Source: Anaerolineae bacterium (lineage in GTDB: Bacteria; Chloroflexota; Anaerolineae; B4-G1). Taken from it: 33,616 nt of DNA. Below, piece after piece: positions 17,193 through 32,102 of this stretch (position 1 is the first letter of the stretch; every line of letters begins with the position of its first letter). Under the pieces are notes generated by a model. The model did no database searches. It was not told the origin of the DNA and saw nothing but the letters and a program-made list of their open reading frames with translations. The DNA lies in contig JAFGED010000299.1 of the NCBI GenBank assembly GCA_016931785.1, positions 1 through 33,616 of the forward strand, written 5' to 3'. The position numbers were made by a program, and so were the translations under genes.

Positions 17193-17981
17193 TCATCGGA
17201 AGCGGCGTTGCCACTCCTCTTTCAGCGCCAGGGATTCCAGGTCACTACCGGCGTCGAGGAAATCCATCAGGAGTCGGTTGAACTTGTTGCGCTCCTCCAA
17301 CATCGGGAAATGTTGAGCGCCGGTCAAAGAAATGGAGCGCACGTTGTCGTCAAAATCTTCCAACCAGTCCGGCTCAGGCATCCTGATGAGGGGATCATCG
17401 CCGCCATATGTCAGAAGCACAGGCGTCTCCACGAGAGGTGAAAGTAAGTCGCGCAGGTCGTACCCCATCACAGACTGCACGCTGTTGACGACGGCGTTCG
17501 CATCGGTCTTGCGCGCTTCCATCTCCACCTCTGGGAAGTTGGCGCGTCGGGATACCAGGCGTGCCAGCGCCTCGCCATTACCGTCGAAACCGGCCAGAGG
17601 CCGGTTGACAGCCTCGCCTAACACAGGCACGCTCACCGCCATCACACGTTGTACCAAACTCGGGGCCTGAGCGGCAAACGCCAGCGCGACCAAGCCTCCC
17701 AACGCATGGCCGACGATGGGCACACTCTGAATACCCAATTGCTCAAGGAACTCGTTGAGCAGTTCGACGTACGCGCCCACGTTGTAGTACGCACTCAACT
17801 TGTCAGAATCGCCAAACCCCCACAGATCCAGGGCATAGGTGCGATGCCTGGCCGACATCTGCTCCATCGCCGGCACCCAGTAGCGCCACGAGCCCAGCCA
17901 GCCGTGAATGAAAATCAACGGCTGTCCACGCCCTATCACCTCGTAGTGAACGAGGCCTTCCTTAATGACAATAGCGCTCAT
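17193..17981 (-). CDS. Alpha/beta hydrolase-fold protein with nucleophile Ser replaced by Ala
   Basis: The 262-aa protein has the alpha/beta hydrolase layout: oxyanion region LIFIHGWLGSW (22-32), LDLWGFGDSD (51-60), nucleophile elbow GHALGG (91-96), acid region TYGGDDPLI (Asp195/196) and catalytic His224 in GAQHFPML. The elbow should read GHSxGG, but codon 93 is GCG (Ala; plus strand 17703-17705). A serine codon TCG would differ by one base. The paralogue at 27522-28307 has GHSMGG with Ser at the same residue number, 93. The protein is otherwise intact, so it may be a non-catalytic binding protein or may use another mechanism. It lies between a lone receiver gene and the ABC permease pair. 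Confidence 0.9.
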   Translation of the reverse strand: MSAIVIKEGLVHYEVIGRGQPLIFIHGWLGSWRYWVPAMEQMSARHRTYALDLWGFGDSDKLSAYYNVGAYVELLNEFLEQLGIQSVPIVGHALGGLVALAFAAQAPSLVQRVMAVSVPVLGEAVNRPLAGFDGNGEALARLVSRRANFPEVEMEARKTDANAVVNSVQSVMGYDLRDLLSPLVETPVLLTYGGDDPLIRMPEPDWLEDFDDNVRSISLTGAQHFPMLEERNKFNRLLMDFLDAGSDLESLALKEEWQRRFR

Positions 17982-18417: not shown

Positions 18418-21400
18418 TCAACTACTACCGGTTCCGCCATTCCCCCAGAGGACCGTTTCGATCTCATCGATCAATCCCTCGACAGAGAATGGCTTGGCCA
18501 TGAAGCTAGCGGCCCCTAACGCAAGTACTTTTTGTCGCTTCGCATCATCAATCACCGAGCTGCCCGTGATCATAATGACGGGGATGTTCTGAGTGACAGG
18601 GTCATCCTTGAGCTTTTTCAGCACGTCATACCCATCCAGATCACTCAAATGAAAATCCAGCAATATCAGGGCAGGCTGCACCTCGCGTGCCACGCGCAGG
18701 ACCCGCTTGCCCCGCGTGGTCGTCCGCACGCCAAAATTATGAGCGCGTAACGCCTCACGCATCAGCGAGAGATTGTCCTTGTCGTCGTCCACCACCAGCA
18801 CGGTGCCACCTCTCACCAACACGCGGCGCACAGAACGCACCAACCGCTCCTCATCAATCGGCTTTGTGATATAATCCACTGCCCCCATCCGCAGACCATC
18901 GTCGCGATCCTGCAAGATAGAGACGACGATCACCGGAATCCCCCGCGTGATGGGATTCGACTTTAGCTGCTCAAGCACACCAAAACCATCGGCGTCTGGA
19001 AGCAGGACGTCAAGCGTGATCAGGTCTGGGCGCTCGCGCTGCGCCATCTCCAGCGCCTCATCCCCGCGCTGCGCGATCATGACCTCCCGGCCATCCCCGG
19101 CGAGATGCAGGCAAATCAGGTTGGCTATGTCAGTATCGTCTTCGACGACCAGCACCTTTTTCGATGTTCGCCCAAAGTCACCTCCGACCCGGGAGGACTC
19201 CCAAGCCTGGGCTGTGGGCAAGGTGAACGTGAATGTACTCCCCTTGCCCAGCTTGCTCTCAACCCAAATCCGGCCACCGTGCATCTCCACCAAGGATTTG
19301 GTGATGGAGAGACCCAAGCCAGTGCCCGGCGCATCCTGAACCACCGGGTCATCGGAGCGAAAGAAGCGCGAGAAGAGCCTCTTTTGATCATCCTCCGAGA
19401 TGCCGATGCCCGTATCCCGCACAGAAACGTGTATCTCGTCGCCCTTGGCGCGAGCCGACACGACGATCTTGCCGCCAGATGGCGTATAGCGGCAGGCATT
19501 GCCCACCAAGTTGGTCAAAACCTGGATCACGCGATCCGGATCGACGAAAATCTCGGGAAGCACCTGCGGCAAATCCGTATGCAGGTCCAAGGCCCTCTCC
19601 GCCGCCCGAGCCCCCAGGGTTGTGACGACTTGAGTGATCAGATCGTCTATGTGCACGACCCTCGGGGTCAATATCAAACGCCCGCTCTCGATCCGCGAGA
19701 TATCCAACAGGTCATTGACCAGAAGCGTGAGGCGATCTGTGTTACTCTTGATGATCGTCAAAAACCTCTGCTGATCGTCCGAAAGCGAGCCAACCGCCCC
19801 CATCAAAAGAAGATCAGCATATCCCTTGATCGACGTCATCGGCGTGCGCAGTTCGTGCGACACCGTGGAGACGAACTCGCTCTTGGCCCGCTCGGCTTCC
19901 ACCTCTGCGGTCACGTCACGAAAGACCGAGACGGTGCCCAGGAACTCCTCGCCCATCAAGACCGGCGCCAGGTGCACGCTGACGATCCGGCCACCGATCT
20001 CTAGGCGGGCCGCCAGATACTCCTCCAAATCCTGCGCACCCTGCCACTTGGAGATCGCCTCCATCCAATCTTGCGCCTGGCCGCCGTACAGGCCGAGCAT
20101 CTCGCTGGTCGAGCGCCCCAGCGCCTCCTCCCGCTGCAGGCCCAGAATACGCTCCGCAGCGGCATTGAACAAAATCACCTGCCCTTGAGCATCGGCCACC
20201 ATCACGCCATCCGCGACGCCTTCCAGGATGGCCTGGCTCTTGCTCGCCTCAACCTCCTGCCCTCTGAGCATACGGCCCAGCCGGTCGGTCTGCTCGAGGA
20301 TCAGTTTGTACAGTTCGGCGTTGTTGATCGAATTGGCGACCTGCGTGGCGGCCGTCTCCACCAAGCGCAAGTGTTCCTCCACAAAGTAGTTGGTTTGCGC
20401 GTGGAAAAGCAGCAGCGCTCCCAAAACCGCATCCCCAGCAGTGAGGGGGGCAGCTACAGCGGAACGGTACTCCCGCGCCCCCTCCTGTGGCTTCTGCCAG
20501 CGCTCATCCTTTCGCGTATCCGGCACGATGACCGCTTGACGGTTCGCGACCACCCACCCCGCCAGGCCCTCACCCCGAGAGAAGCGGATCGTTCTCCCGA
20601 CATAGGATGCCTCATCTCTCGTTCCTCGGGCTGCGCGGCAGAGCAATTCCCCCGTCTGCAGGTCTAGCAGAAAGATAAACGCCTGCTCGGCCCCCACAGC
20701 CTCCACGAGCAACTGCAAGGCCCGGTTGAGCACATGGTCCAAATCAAGGCTGGAGGAAAGCTGCGAGGTAATCCGGTAGAGCGTCTCGACCCGATCGCGC
20801 TCCACCGTCAGATCGCTCATCGTCTCGGCCAATTCCTGGGTGCGTTCCTCGACACGCTGCTCAAGTTCCTGCGAGAACCGGCTCACCCGGTCGAACAGGC
20901 GCGCGTGGTCCACCGCTGCGGATACCTGGTCGGCCAGCGCGGAAAGTGTCGCCACCTCCGCGGGAAAGAATCTATGGGGCTCCCGATAGCCCACGCACAG
21001 AACGCCGACAACTCCACCACCGGCCGAAAGAGGGGCCATAAGCACAGCCCCCACTTCCTCTCTCGCAGAAGCAAGAAACGAGCTCGACTCCTTCGCCAGA
21101 TCGTCAATCGCCAGTGGCATGCCGCTCTCAGCCACCGACCCCACCAGGCCTTCGCCGCGGGCAAAGCTGTGAGCCGAGATGTTCTCCAGCGCGAACCCAT
21201 ACACGGCCTGCAGTGTGTACCGCTTGCTCTCGGCGTCCAAGAGAAAGATAAAACTATGATCGTACCCCAGCAACTTGGGCGCCATCACGACGATGCTATT
21301 CAACACATCGGCCAGTTCCACCTCGGCAATAGCCGCACGGCTGACCTCGTTGAATAACGCCAACGTGTCGGCGCGGCGCTCCAGCTCTTCCACCATGCGC

Positions 21401-23529
21401 GCGTTCTCGACGGCGAGCGCGGCCTGCGCTGCAAAGATCTCGAGCGCCTCGACGGTAGAGTGGTCGGGCACACGGCCATCCCGCGGCTGGCTCACGGAGA
21501 GAACGCCGTGCGTGTCCCCACCGGGGCCGATGAGAGGGACAAGCAGGACATCTTGGGGATGCCAACGCCCGGGGTGGCGTATAGCATCCCCGGCTTCCTC
21601 ATAATCATACATAGCCAGGCGACCACGCCAATGCGCTTGCCTCTCGGCCGGAATGTAATAGCTGTTGCTGATGCGAAACTCGGCGCTCATCACCCCTGCC
21701 ACATCGAACCAAGGTTTGAGCGCCTGCCTCATACCCTCAAAAGTCGTAATGGGAATCCCTGCCGCAGCGGCCCATCGCATGTTGGCTGGAGCGCCCTCCA
21801 GGACGCCGATCAACACCACGTTGAACGCCACGGCTTCCTCGATCGCATACGCAACCTCTTCCAGTATTTCAGCCAGGGGCCGGTCCGAGCGCAACGCCCT
21901 GCTAACCTCCAGCACCATCGCGAGCTGGTCCGCCCGCTGAGATAGCAGGTCCCGCTGTTTCACTTGCTCATCATAGCGCCGCTTGTTGCCGATGGCGATA
22001 GCGGCCTGAGCCGACAGCCCTTCGACAAATCCCAAAGCCTCTTGGCCAAACACCGCCATCGCCGCGCTTTCCAGGAGAATCACGCCGGTCAGCGCCTCCG
22101 CGTAAAAGACAGGCACGATCAACATGGAACGCGAGCCCGCCTCGAAACCGGTCCCGCCTATGCTGGTAGTCATGTCGGGAATAACCAAGGACTGACCGGT
22201 GCGCAGCACCTCTGCCAACGCAGAATGCGCCTCCGGCGACTGCAACACCATACGGATGCGCCCTACCCCCTCTTCCGAATACCCCGTATGGACTCCCAGG
22301 CCCAGCTCGCCACTCTCACCCAAGAGCACAATCGCTCCACAAGCTGCGCCGGACAGGTGCGCCGCCTCCTCCAAAATCACGGGCAAAATGTCATCCAGCA
22401 TGAGGGTGTCGTTGATCTTGCGGCTCACGCGCCCAAAGCCCTCCAGCGCCTCCATCCAGCGCTGGAGCTTTTCATCCGTCTGCGCGTACATCCGCGCGTT
22501 CTCAATCGCGATCGCCGCCTGATCTGCCAGCGTGCTGAGCAACTCGACATCCGTTTCGGAAAAGCCGTGTGGCTTGGTGAACATCGCGGAGAGCATACCG
22601 ACGGGACGGTTGGCCCGCTTGAGCGGCAAATCTGCGAACGCACGGAATCCCTCGCGTGCCGCCATGGGCACGTCATCCTGCAAACCTGCAAAGATACACG
22701 GCTCTCCAGTTACAAAGGCGCAAGCCCGTCCGTCGCGATCCAGCTCAAGCGCCTTCGGCTCCGGCGCATATTTCCCGCCCAATCCCTGAATCATCTCCAA
22801 GCGCAACACCTGCCGCGACTCGTCGAATACATAGATCGCTGCACGCTGGCAACCTAATACCTCCAATACCGCCGAGGTGATCGTCTGCAGCACGTGCTGC
22901 AGGTCCAGCGACTCGCTCATGGTGGACGAAATCGCCGCGAGAGAAGCCAGGTCCGCAGCGCGGCGTCGTGCCTCCTCGTAAAGATAGACGCTCTCCAAAG
23001 CTATCGCCATCTGATTTCCGATCGCCTGCAAAATCTCCAGGTCGCGCTCCGTGAAGGCATTCTTGCGACAACCGAACATCCCCAGCGTGCCGATAAACCG
23101 ACTTTGACTTTGCAGCGGAACACCAACATATGATCGGAAAGGATATCCACGCTCGTCCGACTTGGGACGCACGTCCTGCCGGGCCTTGATATCGGGAATG
23201 AAAAGCGCCTCCCGATGGCGTGCTATCCAGCCCGCATATCCCTCGTCAAGCTGATAGACACCGCCCGCCTCCCAAGCATAGGCCCGACTTCCGCGCCAAT
23301 CCTGCGTCACGCAGCACTGTCGCTCCTCATCCCAGAGTGCAACCTCAGCGACGTCATAGTTTACGACCTGATGAGCACTTGAAAGCAGCGAATCCAACGT
23401 CGTCTCCAGATCCAGGCCGCCGTCAACCTTGACCTCAAGAACAGGACGCCCCATTTCCTCCTCGTGGCCTGCCGGCCGCTTTTGAGGGGAAGGCACCTTG
23501 AACTGGCGTTTCTCTACACGCACGTCCAT
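18418..23529 (-). CDS. Giant hybrid kinase: six GAF, PAS, HisKA, HATPase, two REC
   Basis: The 1703-aa protein (ATG start; a TTG at 23541 would add four residues, and neither has a strong ribosome site) contains six consecutive GAF domains at about 41-186, 196-346, 366-516, 541-711, 726-876 and 921-1071. A PAS domain (about 1096-1211), HisKA with His1225 in STVSHELRTPM, an ATPase domain with N box NLVGNACRYTP, G1 DTGIGI and G2 GTGLGL, and two receivers with Asp1507 and Asp1625 follow. A coiled coil (about 880-920) separates GAF5 and GAF6. No membrane helix is seen, so it is probably a cytosolic integrator of several signals with a built-in phosphorelay. It follows the REC-GGDEF gene by 26 bp and precedes a lone receiver. 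Confidence 0.93.
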   Translation of the reverse strand: MDVRVEKRQFKVPSPQKRPAGHEEEMGRPVLEVKVDGGLDLETTLDSLLSSAHQVVNYDVAEVALWDEERQCCVTQDWRGSRAYAWEAGGVYQLDEGYAGWIARHREALFIPDIKARQDVRPKSDERGYPFRSYVGVPLQSQSRFIGTLGMFGCRKNAFTERDLEILQAIGNQMAIALESVYLYEEARRRAADLASLAAISSTMSESLDLQHVLQTITSAVLEVLGCQRAAIYVFDESRQVLRLEMIQGLGGKYAPEPKALELDRDGRACAFVTGEPCIFAGLQDDVPMAAREGFRAFADLPLKRANRPVGMLSAMFTKPHGFSETDVELLSTLADQAAIAIENARMYAQTDEKLQRWMEALEGFGRVSRKINDTLMLDDILPVILEEAAHLSGAACGAIVLLGESGELGLGVHTGYSEEGVGRIRMVLQSPEAHSALAEVLRTGQSLVIPDMTTSIGGTGFEAGSRSMLIVPVFYAEALTGVILLESAAMAVFGQEALGFVEGLSAQAAIAIGNKRRYDEQVKQRDLLSQRADQLAMVLEVSRALRSDRPLAEILEEVAYAIEEAVAFNVVLIGVLEGAPANMRWAAAAGIPITTFEGMRQALKPWFDVAGVMSAEFRISNSYYIPAERQAHWRGRLAMYDYEEAGDAIRHPGRWHPQDVLLVPLIGPGGDTHGVLSVSQPRDGRVPDHSTVEALEIFAAQAALAVENARMVEELERRADTLALFNEVSRAAIAEVELADVLNSIVVMAPKLLGYDHSFIFLLDAESKRYTLQAVYGFALENISAHSFARGEGLVGSVAESGMPLAIDDLAKESSSFLASAREEVGAVLMAPLSAGGGVVGVLCVGYREPHRFFPAEVATLSALADQVSAAVDHARLFDRVSRFSQELEQRVEERTQELAETMSDLTVERDRVETLYRITSQLSSSLDLDHVLNRALQLLVEAVGAEQAFIFLLDLQTGELLCRAARGTRDEASYVGRTIRFSRGEGLAGWVVANRQAVIVPDTRKDERWQKPQEGAREYRSAVAAPLTAGDAVLGALLLFHAQTNYFVEEHLRLVETAATQVANSINNAELYKLILEQTDRLGRMLRGQEVEASKSQAILEGVADGVMVADAQGQVILFNAAAERILGLQREEALGRSTSEMLGLYGGQAQDWMEAISKWQGAQDLEEYLAARLEIGGRIVSVHLAPVLMGEEFLGTVSVFRDVTAEVEAERAKSEFVSTVSHELRTPMTSIKGYADLLLMGAVGSLSDDQQRFLTIIKSNTDRLTLLVNDLLDISRIESGRLILTPRVVHIDDLITQVVTTLGARAAERALDLHTDLPQVLPEIFVDPDRVIQVLTNLVGNACRYTPSGGKIVVSARAKGDEIHVSVRDTGIGISEDDQKRLFSRFFRSDDPVVQDAPGTGLGLSITKSLVEMHGGRIWVESKLGKGSTFTFTLPTAQAWESSRVGGDFGRTSKKVLVVEDDTDIANLICLHLAGDGREVMIAQRGDEALEMAQRERPDLITLDVLLPDADGFGVLEQLKSNPITRGIPVIVVSILQDRDDGLRMGAVDYITKPIDEERLVRSVRRVLVRGGTVLVVDDDKDNLSLMREALRAHNFGVRTTTRGKRVLRVAREVQPALILLDFHLSDLDGYDVLKKLKDDPVTQNIPVIMITGSSVIDDAKRQKVLALGAASFMAKPFSVEGLIDEIETVLWGNGGTGSS

Positions 23530-23555
23530 ACGATTTACCAACTCGAGGTTCGAAC

Positions 23556-24458
23556 CTAAGACTTAGCCTCCCGCCCTTCGCGCCGCGCAGTAGCAGCAGC
23601 CTCGGTAATCTCGCGAATGTCGGAGAAGGGACCATCATCCTCAGTCAACACACCGATAGCAACAGTCATCAGATCGACCTTGGTCTCGTTACCCGCCTCG
23701 TCGCGCACGAGCAGGTACCCCTGCTCTCGCGTCTGCCAGTCGTAATGCGTCCCCACGCCGTCATTAAAGCGCTGCGTCAGATCCTCCACCATCGCATCGA
23801 CCGACCCTTTGTCAGCGGAAATGACGATGAAATCATCCCCGCCGATGTGGCCGATGAAATCGTTGGGCGTCCCCAAACTGTCCAGCGACTGGCCCAGGAT
23901 CATCGCCATGAATCTCAGCACCTCCTCACCCGCCACGAAACCATATACCTCCGTGAATGCATCGAACCCCACCAGGCCCACGTAGAGAATGCCCCAACCA
24001 TCTCGCCGCATTAGATTCCGCAACTGATCCTCAATCAACCGGCCGCCAGGCAAGCCGGTAGTGGGGTTGGTCAGGCTCTGGATGGTCGCACGAGAAATGG
24101 CGCTCTTGACCCGCAGCTTGAGCTCCTCCAGGTCAAAGGGCTTGGTGATATAGTCATCGGCGCCCAGTTCAAGGCCATGAATTTTGTCGGAACGCTCGTC
24201 CTTTTGAGTCAAAAAGATAATGGGAACGTGGCTGGTACGGAGATTGTTCCGCAACTCGCGGCAAACGTCATAGCCATCCATGTCCGGTAGCATTATGTCA
24301 AGCACAATGATGTGAGGCAACTGCTTCCGGCACATCTCCAACGCATCCTCACCTCGCTGAGCCACAGCCACTTCGTAGCCATGCGATTGGAAGTAAATGC
24401 GTAACATGTTGGAGATGTCGAAATCGTCCTCCACTATGAGCATTCTACCTTCGGACAT
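23556..24458 (-). CDS. Response regulator with degenerate GGDEF domain
   Basis: The 300-aa protein has a canonical receiver (about 5-120; Glu10-Asp11-Asp12 acidic pocket, Asp54 phosphoacceptor, Lys106) joined to a GGDEF-like domain (about 130-290). That domain keeps TGLPGG (134-139) but its signature is GGDDF (206-210) instead of GGDEF/GGEEF. The usual FDxFKxxND stretch is replaced by GFDAFTEVYGF. These changes make diguanylate cyclase activity doubtful; it may bind GTP or act as a scaffold. The ATG is preceded by AAGGAGG. It lies 58 bp after the AAR-like gene and 26 bp before the giant kinase, so it is probably part of the same phosphorelay. Confidence 0.88.
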   Translation of the reverse strand: MSEGRMLIVEDDFDISNMLRIYFQSHGYEVAVAQRGEDALEMCRKQLPHIIVLDIMLPDMDGYDVCRELRNNLRTSHVPIIFLTQKDERSDKIHGLELGADDYITKPFDLEELKLRVKSAISRATIQSLTNPTTGLPGGRLIEDQLRNLMRRDGWGILYVGLVGFDAFTEVYGFVAGEEVLRFMAMILGQSLDSLGTPNDFIGHIGGDDFIVISADKGSVDAMVEDLTQRFNDGVGTHYDWQTREQGYLLVRDEAGNETKVDLMTVAIGVLTEDDGPFSDIREITEAAATARREGREAKS

Positions 24459-24516: not shown

Positions 24517-25530
24517 TCAACAGATGGCCGATAATCGAAAGCCATGCTTTCGAGCCAGTCGAGCGATCTCGTGGACCTGTTCAACCCGAATATGCTTGCC
24601 AAGTGAGTAGCTTTCGTATCGCCCATCCAGTGCCAACACCATCGTCTCTGCCATACAGGCATAGGCCTTGCCAGACGAAAGCCCAAAGTCAAACCCAAAG
24701 TCGACCTCACCCGGCACGTCCACTAACCCCCCCGCGACAATCAACACATCGCTCCGCTCTTGCTTCACACGCGGCGAGACATCCGGCGGAAGGGCTATAT
24801 CGCACACGACCGCACCGTGCTTGAGATATTCAGGCTGGATGACCGAGTCGGCAGCGCTGGTAGCGCTCAACACCAGGTCCGCCTCACACACCTCCTCGAC
24901 CTGCATCGAGGTGCGCACCTGCCGGGTCCTGGCCCCTTCGACTTGCGCCCGGACCTGTGCCAGCCTGGACTCTGAGCGGCCAACCAGAATCAGCCTATCC
25001 ACCGCCGGGGCAAGCAGCTCAGCGCACGCCCGGCCAATGCTCCCCGTCGCGCCGATCACAGCCACGGTAGACGACTCCAGCCGGATGCCTTTGCAACGCG
25101 CCCCTTCCTCCAGCGCTTCGAGCGCCATCGCTACAGTGAGACTGTGCCCCGTCGTGACAGGGATATCAAGATGCCGCGCGACGGTCATACCAGCGTCGCC
25201 TACCACGGACGTGAAAGCCCCCAACCCCAATATCTGGGCGCCCAACCGCTGTGCCAGCCGGCCCGCTGCAATTATTTTATTGTAAACTGTCCGGGTTGGC
25301 AACTCGAGTGCCTGCCGTGCGGTAAACGGGCAAGCCACCAACCAACCCTCTATTTCCTTTCCCGTATCCTCCGAACGCACGCCGGCAACGTGCGAAAGGC
25401 AGACCGGCGGCCAGAAACGCGCCAAAAAGTGAACCAACCTCGCGGGCAATATCCTTGCCAGATGCGGATACTTGCGCGCTACATCCCGCTTGGGATCAAC
25501 AGGATGAATGACAAAAGCAAAACTGCTCAT
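24517..25530 (-). CDS. Homologue of long-chain acyl-ACP reductase (AAR)
   Basis: The 337-aa protein resembles cyanobacterial long-chain acyl-[ACP] reductase along its length. It has a VxSxTG-type stretch before EIEGWLVACPFT, LGLGAFTSVVGDAG (102-114), a Rossmann motif VIGATGSIGRACAELL (158-173), AGGLVDVPGEVD, and a C-terminus GKAYACMAETMVLAL with Cys292 aligned to the acyl-thioester cysteine of AAR. The tail RVEQVHEIARLARKHGF also matches. AAR makes fatty aldehydes from acyl-ACP with NADPH. Similar proteins are often labelled shikimate dehydrogenase, but the AAR-like cysteine and tail argue against that. No aldehyde-deformylating oxygenase gene is nearby, so alkane synthesis is not implied. 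The start overlaps the stop of the beta-helix gene as ATGA. Confidence 0.82.
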   Translation of the reverse strand: MSSFAFVIHPVDPKRDVARKYPHLARILPARLVHFLARFWPPVCLSHVAGVRSEDTGKEIEGWLVACPFTARQALELPTRTVYNKIIAAGRLAQRLGAQILGLGAFTSVVGDAGMTVARHLDIPVTTGHSLTVAMALEALEEGARCKGIRLESSTVAVIGATGSIGRACAELLAPAVDRLILVGRSESRLAQVRAQVEGARTRQVRTSMQVEEVCEADLVLSATSAADSVIQPEYLKHGAVVCDIALPPDVSPRVKQERSDVLIVAGGLVDVPGEVDFGFDFGLSSGKAYACMAETMVLALDGRYESYSLGKHIRVEQVHEIARLARKHGFRLSAIC

Positions 25531-26798
25531 ACAACGCTGGCTGAGGCGGGGTCATACAAGCGCCGATGGAACTCTTTTCCATCCTTGATGCCAAAATGAT
25601 CGCTGTCCTCGTAACAGACGTTTTTGGTAATCACGCGACGCTCATCCGAGGCCACCAGGATAACGTCTGATTCAACCGCTCGGCCCGGATACACGACCAT
25701 ACCCGAGCCGATGAAGCAATTGTGCCCCACACAGCCACCTAGAACCGGCATACCTGTATCCCCCAGAGCGCCATCCCCCCCCATTGCGCGGATAGGCTTG
25801 GGCACCAGGTTAAAGTCGGTAAAAGTACTGCCAGCACCAATGAAGGTATTACGCCCGATGCTACAGAACTGCAAGCACGTGTTCTGCGCCACCATCGAAT
25901 CTTCCATCATCACACTCATAAAAAGCGCGGCGCGGAAGGGAAGAAACCCACGATCCGACACCACACTGAGCTGAATCTGACAATCCTGCCCAATATCCAC
26001 GTTGTTCCCGATGACGGACACGTCGATCACCGACCCCGCCCCTATGCTCACGTTGTCACCGATGTACGTCGGTCCCTGAATGACGGCCGAAGGGTCGATA
26101 CTACAATTGCGTCCTATGTGTACCGCGCCCGACGACATGCCCGCTTGCTTTCGTTCCAACATCCCATGCCACAGGAGTTTGAGTTGCTTCAAAGCACTAC
26201 GCTCGATATCACGCTCCAAGCGCGCCCCCTCGGAAAACACGCCAAAGAAGATGTTGGCGGTGATGGTGTGTATCCAATGTTCGATCGAACAGAAGGATTT
26301 GGTGGGCAGATGATACGTCAAGTCGCCCTTCTCGTTTGACATGTGCGTTGGGACGTGATAGTAACCCGCCTGGCGCGACTCGGTATCCATAACGAGGGGG
26401 CGCACAATGGGTTCGACGCCGTAGGGGAAATACCACATATCAGCAACGTATACATTCCCCTCGGGACGGATGCCCTGCTGCAGATGAATGGCATGGGCGT
26501 TGATCGCCGGATCGTCTAGCGCAAAAGCGACCCGGCACGCTTTGCCCAACCGCCGGGCCCGGCGGATGAACTCGTCCAAAAAGTGCTGGTCAAAAAACAG
26601 GTTGTCCCGGTAGACCAGTGTCTCCACCCGCTGGGAATCAATTCCGGCAAATGAATCGATCTCACGCTCCTCAGTGGTGTAGGAAGCCAGAACGTCTCGA
26701 TGGTAAAGCCACAAGGGTTTGTTAAGCACCCGCAAGTTACGCGCAGGCTCATTGAAAGGAAATATCAGACGGCTGTCCTGCAGAATAAATTTACGCAT
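25527..26798 (-). CDS. Left-handed beta-helix transferase-like protein with NTP-transferase-like N-terminus
   Basis: The 423-aa protein has an N-terminal part (about 1-200) reminiscent of the GlmU-type N-terminal fold, without a clear nucleotide-binding signature. A C-terminal left-handed beta-helix (about 225-400) of hexapeptide repeats follows, such as VHIGRNCSIDPSAVIQ and YIGDNVSIGAGSVIDV. Such helices occur in acyl- or acetyltransferases and sugar nucleotidyltransferases. A loop (about 283-312) interrupts the repeats. The substrate is not known. It starts 6 bp after the V4R gene and its stop overlaps the AAR-like start as ATGA, so all three are probably expressed together. Confidence 0.78.
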   Translation of the reverse strand: MRKFILQDSRLIFPFNEPARNLRVLNKPLWLYHRDVLASYTTEEREIDSFAGIDSQRVETLVYRDNLFFDQHFLDEFIRRARRLGKACRVAFALDDPAINAHAIHLQQGIRPEGNVYVADMWYFPYGVEPIVRPLVMDTESRQAGYYHVPTHMSNEKGDLTYHLPTKSFCSIEHWIHTITANIFFGVFSEGARLERDIERSALKQLKLLWHGMLERKQAGMSSGAVHIGRNCSIDPSAVIQGPTYIGDNVSIGAGSVIDVSVIGNNVDIGQDCQIQLSVVSDRGFLPFRAALFMSVMMEDSMVAQNTCLQFCSIGRNTFIGAGSTFTDFNLVPKPIRAMGGDGALGDTGMPVLGGCVGHNCFIGSGMVVYPGRAVESDVILVASDERRVITKNVCYEDSDHFGIKDGKEFHRRLYDPASASVV

Positions 26799-26804
26799 CG
26801 ATCG

Positions 26805-27497
26805 TCAATCCAATGGGCGCTTGCCGATCAAGAAAGAACAGGTGCGATCTCCGGCAGCGATACAGGATACCTCTTCGATGTAAAAGCTCTTGCCACCGCT
26901 GACCCAATAAAGCCCTTCCTCCAACACACCGATGACCAGATGGCAGCATGGCGAGCTAGACGTCCGCCCCCAGCACACACCACAACGATCCATAATCCAG
27001 TGAAAATGCTCCTCACTCTCCCTCAATTCCACCAGGTTATCCGTGTACTTGTTCATCGTCTGGGCCAGGACTTCGAACCCCACCTTGAGCCTCATACCTA
27101 AGGGCAGGATGCGAAAGGTCAAATCCGCGATGCCGAGCATCGGCCCAAAGTCTATGATTCCCAGCTTGAAGCAAGCCTGGCCAGCCCGTCGCGCCAGCCC
27201 TCTCCCACCTCGTGGACCATACATCTCGTCCAATGCCTGCAACAACTGCCCCAGCTCATCAAACCCAAAGTCCTTGACAAAATTGTTAGGCGGATAGTTC
27301 CCGATCCTGTGCTGGAGCCGGGCCAAGTTCAAGACAGCGGTCACGCCATTGCGGCCCATCACCTCCTCCAGTGCTAGGAGGACGATCCGCCCCATCTTGT
27401 TGGGAAGCAGATACCTTGGCGATTCTTGAGCCGCCGAAGCAGGGACCTCTGCCATACGAACATCCATCTTCCGATTGGTAACCACGTCGACTCCCAT
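26805..27497 (-). CDS. V4R-domain (4-vinyl reductase/hydrocarbon-binding) protein
   Basis: The 230-aa protein has a helical N-terminal half and a C-terminal V4R-type domain (about 145-228) ending in EEVSCIAAGDRTCSFLIG, the usual closing motif. The domain is Cys-rich (Cys172, 175, 184, 185, 212, 220), compatible with metal or ligand binding. V4R domains bind small hydrophobic ligands in several regulatory and pigment proteins. Here it sits between a hydrolase gene (24 bp upstream) and the beta-helix gene (6 bp downstream), and could sense or carry a hydrophobic product of the neighbouring enzymes. ATG at 27497 is used; no strong ribosome site was seen and later ATG codons (27467, 27455) are possible. 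Confidence 0.78.
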   Translation of the reverse strand: MGVDVVTNRKMDVRMAEVPASAAQESPRYLLPNKMGRIVLLALEEVMGRNGVTAVLNLARLQHRIGNYPPNNFVKDFGFDELGQLLQALDEMYGPRGGRGLARRAGQACFKLGIIDFGPMLGIADLTFRILPLGMRLKVGFEVLAQTMNKYTDNLVELRESEEHFHWIMDRCGVCWGRTSSSPCCHLVIGVLEEGLYWVSGGKSFYIEEVSCIAAGDRTCSFLIGKRPLD

Positions 27498-27521
27498 GCG
27501 GGCTTTCCCAATCCTTCGCGT

Positions 27522-28307
27522 TCAGTCAAACGAGCGATCTAGAAACTCGACCAGTACATGATAAAACCTTTCGGGCTCGTCCAACATCGGAAAGTGCCCC
27601 GAGCTCTCGAAATAGCTTATCTCGGCCATCGGCGCGCTATCTGCCAGCACGTTGCGCTGCTTGGGATCCACGATGCGATCGATCCGGCCATAGATGCCCA
27701 GTATCGGCACCTCGATCTCGCACATCCGGGGGCGCAAGTCCGTGTGACGCAGTGAAGCGATGCTGTAGTGAAAGGATTCCAGTGTCGTGCGCGAAAGATC
27801 CGCCTCAAACATCTTGTACCACGTTTGCCAATCCCGTGCATAGATTGGAGAGAGAAGGCGAGAACCCAGCGGGAAGAACCGATAGAACAGACCGGCCAAG
27901 GAACGGCGCGCCGACAGACGCAGCAAGAGGGCCAACCCATCGCCCACGATAGGCGATCCTACCACCGCCACCCTCTCAACGCGACCGGGATAGTCCAGCG
28001 CCACGCCGAGGGAAACCGTGCCCCCCATCGAGTGGCCGATGATGGGTGCTCGTTCAATCCCAAGCCGGTCCATAAACTGGTCCACCATGGCGACGTAATC
28101 GCCGACCGTGAACGTACCGCCTTGCTTCCCGGACTCGCCAAATCCCCAAAAGTCGAGAGCGTAGGCCTTATAGCTGCGGCTCAGGGCCTCCATGGTCCCA
28201 CGCCAAGGATGCCAGGACTCGAGCCAACCATGCAGCAAGATCACGGGCCGTCCACGCCCATGTGTCTCGTAGTGAACCACGCCCCGATCAGTAACAAGAG
28301 AACTCAT
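27522..28307 (-). CDS. Alpha/beta hydrolase
   Basis: The 261-aa protein is an alpha/beta hydrolase with a complete triad: Ser93 in GHSMGG (91-96), Asp210 in IYGRIDRIVD and His238 in SSGHFPML. It has the oxyanion region VILLHGWLESW and LDFWGFGESG. It is a paralogue of the Ala93 protein at 17193-17981; the two align without gaps through the elbow. The substrate is unknown; such enzymes cleave esters, thioesters, lactones or epoxides. A -10 box lies at 28342-28347, so this gene may start a sub-transcript that includes V4R, beta-helix and AAR-like genes. Confidence 0.92.
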   Translation of the reverse strand: MSSLVTDRGVVHYETHGRGRPVILLHGWLESWHPWRGTMEALSRSYKAYALDFWGFGESGKQGGTFTVGDYVAMVDQFMDRLGIERAPIIGHSMGGTVSLGVALDYPGRVERVAVVGSPIVGDGLALLLRLSARRSLAGLFYRFFPLGSRLLSPIYARDWQTWYKMFEADLSRTTLESFHYSIASLRHTDLRPRMCEIEVPILGIYGRIDRIVDPKQRNVLADSAPMAEISYFESSGHFPMLDEPERFYHVLVEFLDRSFD

Positions 28308-28519: not shown

Positions 28520-29068
28520 TCAGTCCACAGACTCCCCTTCTCCATCCATCGCCTCGAGGATTGAGTACAGGAGCTCCAGCAAGACGTTTTTGACACTCTC
28601 TCGATCGGTCGCTACGCAAGGCAAAACTTTGACGTCGCCCGGAATACGAAGCGCGATACGCAAATCCTCAGGCTGCCACGCGTCATCCAAATCCTGCTTG
28701 TTCGCGGCAACGACGTAGGGTACAGGCGCGTAAGAGCGGAATGTATCCAGAATACTTCTAGCCTCACGAAATGTCTCCGGCCGCACGCTGTCGAGCAGAA
28801 CGATGAAGCCAAGCATGCCCTCAGAAAGAATCTCCCACATAAAGTCAAAGCGGCGTTGGCCAGGAGTACCGAAAAGGTAAAGCACCAAATCGTCGTCCAC
28901 GGTTATGCGACCAAAGTCCATCGCCACTGTGGTCTGATCCTTGACGCGCTCCTCCGGACGGCTTATCTTTCGCTCCGTCGCGACGACATCGATCTCACTA
29001 ATGGCCTGAATGAATTCCGTTTTGCCGGCCGAAAAAGGGCCGGTCACCACCATTTTGACAGTCTGCAT
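28520..29068 (-). CDS. Small GTPase, MglA/CvnD-like
   Basis: The 182-aa protein has the G1 P-loop GPFSAGKT (10-17), a G3 region FGTPGQRRF (66-74), in which the usual Asp of DxxG is replaced as in other bacterial GTPases of this type, and G4 NKQD (123-126). The family works as a switch in polarity and multi-component signalling systems. It starts 2 bp after the PATAN gene stop, so the pair is very probably coupled. No roadblock-domain partner gene is seen in the window; the PATAN protein may fill a partner role. A 212-bp gap follows before the next gene. Confidence 0.9.
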   Translation of the reverse strand: MQTVKMVVTGPFSAGKTEFIQAISEIDVVATERKISRPEERVKDQTTVAMDFGRITVDDDLVLYLFGTPGQRRFDFMWEILSEGMLGFIVLLDSVRPETFREARSILDTFRSYAPVPYVVAANKQDLDDAWQPEDLRIALRIPGDVKVLPCVATDRESVKNVLLELLYSILEAMDGEGESVD

Positions 29069-29070
29069 AG

Positions 29071-29901
29071 TTAGAGCTTCCGAATACGATCGATTAACCG
29101 CAGAACGACACCTCGCTTAACGGCAGGGCGACGCGTAGTCAAGGGAGTCTCCGGGCTGGGCGCTCCCGGTCTTGGACGCGGGATCACGCCCTCGGGCTGG
29201 ACCAACTCCACCAGACCCGCTTGCAACAGGCCGTAAACGATCTTGCGAACCTGGAAATCGCTCATGTTGTTATACTGGGCGATCTGGCGAATCGTGTTGC
29301 GGGGATTGATGAAAGAAACGACACGCCACTCCTCGACACTCATACTGATATTGCGCATATTGGCGCCCGGGCGATCGGCAAACTTGAGCGCCATATCGAG
29401 GTTGGGCAACTCATCCTGCAGCCGCTCCCACTCCTTCAAGCGGCGACTGCCCTCCATGATCACATTTTCCAGATCGATGGAGACGTTAATGCGGTCCCCA
29501 AACGGCAGCACATTCGACTCGAAGCGAAAATTCCCATCCGGCCAGGTGAAAAGAGGGTAAACATTGCCGAGGATGTAGGCATGTACGCTCTGGAGAATAT
29601 CGGACTGGCTCACGTAACCGGCGTTAATCAGCAGCAGGCCCCACTCTTTATCGCTCTTTGCGCTGGCCTGTGTCTGAATTGTGCGGGCTTGTTCCTCGGA
29701 GAGCTTGCCTGCCCGGTGCAGGATCGCGGCTAGATGGGCATCTTGTCCAAGCGTCGCATAGACAAGCTTGCCTTCCCTGAAGGAAAGTCGAGCACGATCG
29801 TCGCGCGCATCAATCGCCAGCGTACCCGTCTTGCGGGCCAAGTTGATCAGATTGAGTAGCTGCGTTGTGCTGAAATCCCGCAGGTTCCCCTTCAGCGCCA
29901 T
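29071..29901 (-). CDS. PATAN (DUF4388) domain protein
   Basis: The 276-aa protein begins MALKGNLRDFSTTQLLNLI, the typical opening of the PATAN/DUF4388 domain, with RKTGTLAI and GKLVYATLG following. A second part contains KEWGLLLINAGYVSQSDI and FTWPDGNFRFE. A C-terminal winged-helix-like region (about 180-235: NTIRQIAQYNNMSDFQVRKIVYGLLQAGLVEL) is followed by a Pro-rich basic tail. PATAN proteins often act as adaptors with two-component systems and small GTPases. ATG at 29901 follows GGAGG; an upstream in-frame codon at 29931 is less likely. It is the first gene of the block, 114 bp downstream of a near-consensus promoter. Confidence 0.88.
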   Translation of the reverse strand: MALKGNLRDFSTTQLLNLINLARKTGTLAIDARDDRARLSFREGKLVYATLGQDAHLAAILHRAGKLSEEQARTIQTQASAKSDKEWGLLLINAGYVSQSDILQSVHAYILGNVYPLFTWPDGNFRFESNVLPFGDRINVSIDLENVIMEGSRRLKEWERLQDELPNLDMALKFADRPGANMRNISMSVEEWRVVSFINPRNTIRQIAQYNNMSDFQVRKIVYGLLQAGLVELVQPEGVIPRPRPGAPSPETPLTTRRPAVKRGVVLRLIDRIRKL

Positions 29902-30022
29902 ACTTACCTCCACTACGGCTGGAAAAACCACAGACTCGACCCTAGAGGGTCATAGCAGATTAGCGAACATCCTCCTGATGGCTTCCAACTGGGCCTTCCC
30001 AAAGGAGACTTTCAATGCGCTA

Positions 30023-31019: not shown

Positions 31020-32102
31020 ATGACCGATGACGTTTATCGCAAGTTGGCCCAGCGACTGGACAAGATTCCCAACGGATTTCCCGTCACCGAGAGCGGCGTC
31101 GAGCTGCGGCTCTTGGAAAAAATCTTTACCCCAGAGGAAGCGGCGCTGGCCTGTGTGATGCGCCTGACGTACGAGCCGGCGGCCGAGATCGCAGCCCGTG
31201 CTGGCATCGACGCCAAGGTCGCCTCCCGCATGCTCAAGCAGATGGTGCGCAAGGGGCAGATTCGCGTCAGAGTAGAGGAAAGGCGCCTTCTATTCAGGCT
31301 CATGCCCTTCGTCGTCGGTATCTATGAAGACCAACTGCCCCGGATGGACGCTGAACTGGCCGAGCTTTTCGAGCAGTATTTCTACGAGACACGGGGAGCC
31401 GGCTTCGTCGAAATCGCGCCCGCCGTCCAGCGCGTCATCCCCGTCAGCGAGGCGATCCCCGTCGATGTGGAGGTCTTTCCCTACGAGCGCGCCGTGGAGC
31501 TCATCGAAAGCGCCAAGTCGTGGGGCGTGCGCGACTGCATCTGCCGCGTGCAACAAAAGCTCGTCGGCAAAGGGTGCGATCGCCCGATCGAAGCCTGCCT
31601 GGTCTTTGCCCCCGTGGAGGGCGTCTTCCAGGGCGACGGGCCAGATCGCCCCATCACCAAGGAAGAGGCACTGCACATCCTGCGCCAGACCGAGGAGGCC
31701 GGGCTGATCCATTCCACCGGCAACTACCGGGACGGCCACTCGTACATCTGCAACTGCTGCACCTGCTGCTGCGGGATACTGCGCAGCGTGGTCGAGTTCG
31801 GTATCCCCACCGCTGCCGTCAGCTCCGACTTTTACGCCGTCGTGGACGCCGACGCGTGCATCGGCTGCGGCGAATGCGTCCAGCAGTGCCAGTTCAAAGC
31901 GCTCGCGGTGCCAGAGGACATCTGCGAGGTCGACGTATCTCGCTGCGTGGGATGTGGGCAGTGCGTCACCATCTGTCCTAGCGGTGCGCTCCACCTGGAA
32001 CGCCGCCCCGAAGACGCGTCGTCTCTGCCTCCAGCGGATCGCAAGGAGTGGCTAGACAGGCGAGCCAAGGAACGGGGAATCAGCCTGCAAGATATCCTAT
32101 AG
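31020..32102 (+). CDS. Winged-helix and 4Fe-4S cluster protein
   Basis: The 360-aa protein combines an N-terminal winged-helix-like region (about 35-95, with AAEIAARAGIDAKVASRMLKQMVRKG), a middle region with DCICR (Cys173, Cys175), Cys186 and Cys193, a striking Cys cluster CNCCTCCC (244-251), and two C-terminal 4Fe-4S motifs CxxCxxCxxxC (280/283/286/290 and 309/312/315/319). It could be an electron carrier or a redox-responsive regulator. The ATG follows AAGGAGAG. It ends 14 bp before the convergent metallophosphoesterase remnant. Confidence 0.85.
   Translation: MTDDVYRKLAQRLDKIPNGFPVTESGVELRLLEKIFTPEEAALACVMRLTYEPAAEIAARAGIDAKVASRMLKQMVRKGQIRVRVEERRLLFRLMPFVVGIYEDQLPRMDAELAELFEQYFYETRGAGFVEIAPAVQRVIPVSEAIPVDVEVFPYERAVELIESAKSWGVRDCICRVQQKLVGKGCDRPIEACLVFAPVEGVFQGDGPDRPITKEEALHILRQTEEAGLIHSTGNYRDGHSYICNCCTCCCGILRSVVEFGIPTAAVSSDFYAVVDADACIGCGECVQQCQFKALAVPEDICEVDVSRCVGCGQCVTICPSGALHLERRPEDASSLPPADRKEWLDRRAKERGISLQDIL

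Follow-up and report, generated by a model that had tools for sequence, protein, structure and literature searches.

We analysed a 33,616-nucleotide stretch of DNA (the window) from an Anaerolineae bacterium (GenBank assembly GCA_016931785.1, contig JAFGED010000299.1, positions 1 to 33,616; genome G000 in our set), the named relatives of which are Chloroflexota, mostly Anaerolineae. The subject is a gene for a reductase of the acyl-ACP reductase (AAR) type and the operon in which it is embedded. The reductase gene lies in a same-strand run that is ordered DUF4388/PATAN, small GTPase, alpha/beta hydrolase (ABH), V4R protein, left-handed beta-helix protein (LbH), AAR, response regulator, GAF kinase and a second alpha/beta hydrolase (ABH2):

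29071..29931 (minus strand): DUF4388 (PATAN-type) protein, by Pfam scan
28520..29068 (minus strand): small GTPase of the Ras-like (MglA) type with conserved G motifs
27522..28307 (minus strand): ABH, nucleophile elbow GHSMGG
26805..27497 (minus strand): V4R-domain protein, 230 aa, a predicted zinc-binding hydrophobic-ligand sensor of the TRAPPC3/PoxR fold
26838..26945 (minus strand): V4R zinc-ligand segment, C185, E209, C212 and C220, corresponding to MopR C155, E178, C181 and C189
25527..26798 (minus strand): LbH (hexapeptide) protein, 423 aa, with a degenerate nucleotidyltransferase-like N domain
24517..25530 (minus strand): AAR-type acyl-thioester reductase, 337 aa, assigned by sequence search, profiles, fold and conserved residues
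25033..25053 (minus strand): GATGSIG dinucleotide-binding loop of the reductase (GATGDIG in AAR)
24655..24657 (minus strand): Cys292 codon of the reductase, aligned with catalytic Cys294 of Synechococcus AAR
23556..24458 (minus strand): receiver-GGDEF response regulator in which the receiver retains its Asp and the GGDEF motif is degenerate
18418..23541 (minus strand): giant sensor kinase, 1707 aa, with six GAF stretches, PAS, HisKA, HATPase and two receivers
17193..17981 (minus strand): ABH2, nucleophile Ser replaced by Ala (GHALGG)

The DUF4388 gene ends 2 bp before the GTPase gene, and the next gaps are 212 bp (GTPase to ABH), 24 bp (ABH to V4R) and 6 bp (V4R to LbH); the LbH and AAR genes overlap by 4 bp in an ATGA junction, and 58, 14 and 436 bp separate AAR from the regulator, the regulator from the kinase, and the kinase from ABH2, respectively. 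A first-pass annotation had singled out the hydrolase, V4R, LbH and reductase genes and their ATGA or few-bp junctions; these four open reading frames, their strand and their junctions were all recovered. The operon proved longer than that gene set, extending upstream to the DUF4388 and GTPase genes and downstream to the regulator, kinase and ABH2 genes.

Based on sequence searches and a predicted structure, we assign the 337-aa protein as an AAR-type acyl-thioester reductase, in agreement with the earlier identification. Its best matches in a PDB sequence search were PigE (4ppm, E 4e-35, over the full-length chain) and Synechococcus AAR (6jzu, E 4e-24), and the same search gave no shikimate dehydrogenase match of comparable strength. 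The reductase family profile matched PigE at 2.8e-51 and AAR at 2.4e-41, and the NCBIfam models PigE (216 bits, below the equivalog cut-off of 850) and AcACP_reductase (TIGR04058; 112.1 bits, below the equivalog cut-off of 449.7) were both reported. By score, the reductase is nearer to the PigE thioester-reductase domain than to cyanobacterial AAR. The AlphaFold model (pLDDT 92) was matched by Foldseek to 6jzy_A, an AAR with NADPH and stearyl, with a TM of 0.86 (rmsd 3.0, E 1.7e-25). Outside AAR, the structure closest in fold to the model was the carmabin TAD, 9e4u.

Residue conservation was counted over 41 homologues. Cys292, which aligns with Cys294 of Synechococcus AAR (SeAAR), the residue that is acylated in catalysis (PMC7089970), is invariant (41/41), and so are G160, G163 and G166 in the GxxGxxG loop. 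Basic contacts to the NADPH phosphate are also kept, with R185 in 39/41 and K/R312 in 41/41 (the R189 and R314 contacts of SeAAR), while the third site (R193 of SeAAR) is variable. The reductase thus shares with cyanobacterial AAR (PDB 6JZQ/6JZU/6JZY/6JZZ) the fold, the loop, the catalytic Cys, the first phosphate-contact Arg, a basic residue at R314 (Lys) and the equivalent of His7, but is only 26% identical to it. With the reductase domains of the prodigiosin enzyme PigE, the closest characterised sequence by score, and of the tambjamine enzyme TamH, it has in common the conserved Cys that both are reported to carry (PMC8341465, PMC9594044) and, by homology, the conversion of an acyl thioester to an aldehyde; it differs from them in residing in a signalling operon and in lacking a fused PLP aminotransferase, being a reductase only. 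Aldehyde formation is strongly implied by homology and by the conserved residues, and we regard enzyme activity as such as highly probable. The window protein lacks the C-terminal tail of about 25 residues (RSFEREVTEEQI...) of most relatives, and ends approximately where cyanobacterial AAR ends.

Synteny was assessed at 80 homologous AAR loci in reference genomes, with the loci testable for each gene as denominators. LbH is encoded within 400 bp upstream of AAR in 66/74 loci (tblastn adds three) and the regulator 3' of AAR in 66/74; GTPase and ABH genes lie upstream in 49/60, and DUF4388 in 42 of the 49 loci long enough for the test. The arrangement recurs across Anaerolineae and is therefore not due to chance. 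The gene set proposed in the first-pass annotation accordingly has counterparts in relatives, although its parts fared unequally: LbH and AAR adjoin in approximately 90% of testable relatives, V4R and LbH in about half. The ABH2 gene follows the kinase gene in several relatives, whereas the ABC-2 permease pair that follows ABH2 in the window has no adjacent counterpart among the relatives' loci. On the other side, adjoining the operon and divergent from it, a gene at 31020-32102 (plus strand) encodes a winged-helix-like N-terminal part and a 4Fe-4S dicluster ferredoxin C-terminal part.

By synteny, the operon has a core of DUF4388/PATAN protein, GTPase, zinc-binding V4R, degenerate-GGDEF regulator and giant GAF kinase, together with an optional acyl/lipid module of ABH (active site intact), LbH and AAR. 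Two near-complete genomes, G104 and G216, encode DUF4388-GTPase-ABH-V4R-LbH without AAR, followed in G104 by the regulator and kinase. At locus L147, DUF4388, GTPase, V4R, regulator and kinase genes occur without ABH, LbH or AAR. A minimal unit (L146:5977-8148, plus strand, in genome G088) consists of DUF4388-GTPase-V4R without the kinase, ABH, LbH or AAR, and links V4R cleanly to a small GTPase at the genetic level. The minimal system is therefore a small GTPase, a PATAN-type partner and a V4R protein, usually with a two-component pair, and the existence of such units and of operons without AAR indicates that the core is signalling, to which ABH, LbH and AAR were added.

The GTPase resembles MglA/Arf (E 4e-7 to MglA 3t12), with TTVA[M/L]DFG, LFGTPGQ and NKQD in 66/66 aligned sequences and a P-loop GxxxxGKT in all variants listed. 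In the regulator family the GGDEF motif is mostly AGGDNF (IGGDDF in the window) with the receiver Asp kept; c-di-GMP output via this regulator was rejected on account of the degenerate GG[D/E]EF. PATAN (DUF4388-type) proteins near MglA-type GTPase genes have been reported (PMC4316618), as have kinase-GTPase operons, the conservons (PMC13343842). Actinobacterial conservons (CvnA-D) share with the window a small MglA-type GTPase and a histidine kinase in one operon; however, the window block differs from these and from MglA-PATAN neighbourhoods in adding V4R, LbH, hydrolase, AAR and the giant GAF kinase. In the Pfam scan none of the genes of the block was of the roadblock (CvnB) or CvnC type, and conservon membership was rejected for this reason. 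In the open-access literature searched we found no description of this operon: PATAN-MglA neighbourhoods and conservons are known, but their combination with V4R, LbH, ABH and AAR was not found.

The V4R identity given to the 230-aa protein held up across its family. The window protein scores 27 bits against Pfam V4R, below the cut-off of 31. Of 28 orthologues, however, 27 reach E <= 0.001, the best of them 9.5e-12, and the residues at the four zinc-ligand positions are conserved (C185 28/28, E209 26/28, C212 28/28, C220 28/28). Their placement on MopR C155/E178/C181/C189 was counted from a weak profile alignment with the PoxR and MopR sensor domains (E 0.03-0.14); the Cys/Glu/Cys/Cys zinc site is known from V4R phenol sensors of the DmpR/MopR type (PMC7264223, PMC10715001). 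V4R proteins are considered to be related to TRAPPC3/Bet3, which holds palmitate in its cavity (PMC2253512, PMC10933270); palmitate or phenols are ligands of the TRAPPC3/V4R fold (PMC7264223, PMC10933270). With MopR/PoxR/DmpR and TRAPPC3/Bet3 the window protein shares the C-terminal V4R motif with these four residues and a predicted hydrophobic cavity; it differs from these in standing alone without fusion to an output domain, in having an extra conserved CxxCW motif, and in being linked to a GTPase gene. From its family, the protein would be expected to bind an acyl-derived or other hydrophobic ligand. A second V4R protein, approximately 25% identical to the first, is encoded elsewhere in the same genome (L132:677-1303, plus strand, contig C302), near genes for an ABC substrate-binding protein and a kinase-like protein.

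The LbH model is most similar to ST0452, a two-domain sugar nucleotidyltransferase/acetyltransferase (query TM 0.52-0.62), and next to GlmU. The two-domain layout and the LbH domain are shared with ST0452/GlmU, and the LbH sequence YRDNLFF may correspond to the GDN-type motif; the overall similarity is limited (TM about 0.5-0.7). The left-handed helix is intact and His359 is invariant, but the glycine-rich NTP-binding loop has been lost across the family, so the N domain is probably a pseudo-nucleotidyltransferase. The ABH nucleophile elbow GHSMGG is kept in 66/68 sequences. In ABH2, by contrast, the nucleophile Ser is lost in 8 of the 11 proteins compared, which suggests a dead hydrolase retained as a binding protein.

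Presence and absence across 400 Chloroflexota genomes agree with an association that extends beyond gene order. AAR was identified in 69 genomes, LbH in 70, V4R in 77 and GTPase in 75; all 70 LbH genomes also carry GTPase and V4R, and 64/70 carry AAR (genus-level hypergeometric for AAR with LbH, 2e-23, uncorrected for kinship and inflated by shared ancestry). In Chloroflexia the operon is split into three places, with the parts still in the same genomes: LbH-regulator-kinase, in some cases preceded by V4R; DUF4388-GTPase; and AAR, unlinked, as a fusion of 690-760 aa. The co-occurrence of unlinked AAR indicates that linkage alone does not explain the association. In a quick tree the operonic Anaerolineae AARs cluster apart from the Chloroflexia fusions (support 82), and mirror-tree correlations are high for all gene pairs, singling out no partner.

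Other AAR-type proteins were encountered in the phylum. At L113-L117 (Chloroflexia and family f9) the AAR domain follows an N-domain of about 300 aa, which has no Pfam match, and some genomes have two paralogues; no common partner was identified among the neighbour genes of the Chloroflexia fusions, and an upstream gene of about 950 aa was rejected as a system member, being UvrA-like. L118:4018-6564 (plus strand; genome G145, family f63) encodes a class-III aminotransferase fused N-terminally to an AAR-type domain, the TamH layout, which suggests long-chain amine synthesis. Weak AAR-like matches inside open frames of >4100 aa (G110:C1:2487780-2488466 and G034:C29:21689-22312) are probably reductive domains of megasynthases, compare carmabin TAD (9e4u).

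We favour the reading that the locus is a Chloroflexota G-protein/two-component signalling operon with an embedded acyl-chemistry module, and give it, mechanism included, a probability of roughly 0.5. In this mechanism, AAR would load the acyl group of acyl-ACP or acyl-CoA onto its Cys292, and reduction by NAD(P)H would release it as an aldehyde, as predicted by homology and the conserved residues. The likeliest recipient of the aldehyde would be the product of another gene of the operon, LbH or ABH, since the LbH gene overlaps the AAR gene; comparable handovers are those from AAR to aldehyde-deformylating oxygenase (ADO) and from the PigE/TamH reductase domain to its aminotransferase domain. 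V4R may then read the acyl-derived product or the acyl supply, by analogy with its family, and its state would be relayed both to the GTPase, as the switch, and to the kinase with its regulator, as the minimal units suggest. The first-pass annotation had read V4R, LbH and AAR as a possible lipid pathway; making, modifying and sensing a lipid are reasonable functions to propose, but the three genes belong to a block within a GTPase/two-component signalling operon and do not constitute a pathway of their own.

Several observations weigh against the signalling-operon reading. V4R directly precedes LbH in only 29/60 loci, and AAR is the operon member most often absent. By sequence, V4R is only weakly similar to the solved V4R sensors (E 0.03-0.16). 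At the position of the acyl-tunnel residue Tyr247, required for acyl binding in SeAAR (PMC7089970), 37/41 reductase homologues have Arg and the window protein has Leu, so that the acyl chain-length or head-group preference probably differs from that of SeAAR.

A lesser but credible alternative is that AAR is an ordinary lipid enzyme, supplying fatty aldehyde or alcohol for wax, ether or diol lipids or alkyl amines, which is merely controlled by the operon and yields no signal. The unlinked Chloroflexia fusions, the operons without AAR and the biosynthetic roles of the relatives PigE and TamH (PMC8341465, PMC9594044) are consistent with this. However, the AAR gene has a fixed position between the LbH and regulator genes, and no known aldehyde-consuming enzyme was recognised beside AAR in Anaerolineae. 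The wax-ester synthase WS/DGAT is clear in only 2/41 genomes, so that it was rejected as a general sink, and ADO was identified in 0/24 genomes of the group (the Synechococcus control was detected), which speaks against the alkane pathway and bears out the earlier remark that no aldehyde oxygenase gene accompanies the reductase.

It is improbable that LbH is instead the main enzyme, an O/N-acyltransferase or sugar-nucleotide enzyme for a surface glycolipid to which AAR and the hydrolase are accessory. Its hexapeptide domain, ST0452/GlmU-like model, invariant His359 and strict presence with V4R and GTPase would fit such a role, whereas the loss of the NTP loop leaves the nucleotidyltransferase half probably dead, and the block has no glycosyltransferase or polymerase genes. 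A shikimate/quinate-type or other Rossmann dehydrogenase in place of AAR has next to no likelihood: the strongest Pfam match is Shikimate_DH (49.7 bits), but the model reaches a TM of <= 0.51 with the listed shikimate/quinate dehydrogenases, against 0.86 with AAR, and the alignment to AAR and PigE is full-length and includes the catalytic Cys region, so that model fold and alignment rule this identity out.

Within the signalling-operon reading, the ligand of V4R is a separate matter. That the AAR product is this ligand is doubtful, and as a general rule an obligate dependence is not supported, since V4R is kept without AAR in the two families of L146 and L147 and in the near-complete genomes G104, G216, G150 and G309, in all four of which GTPase and LbH genes are also present. 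More speculative still, and a long shot, is a lipid-gated G-protein switch, in which a TRAPPC3/Bet3-like V4R would bind an acyl-derived ligand from the operon's AAR/LbH/ABH module and regulate the adjacent Ras-like GTPase, in parallel, possibly evolutionary, to TRAPP-Rab.

AAR-type reductases are known for the production of alkanes or alkyl-amine tails. The fixed place of such an enzyme in a signalling operon of GTPase, kinase and V4R across Anaerolineae, together with its co-occurrence with the operon's parts in other Chloroflexota, would connect the supply of fatty acyl groups with G-protein signalling in a phylum that has received little study. The locus family is also a source of AAR-type enzymes whose acyl tunnel is altered. 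V4R proteins, as relatives of the TRAPP subunit Bet3, would be linked genetically to a bacterial Ras-like GTPase, and the idea of V4R as a GTPase-associated lipid sensor becomes directly testable. The Chloroflexota that carry the operon may thus couple fatty-acid chemistry to signalling.

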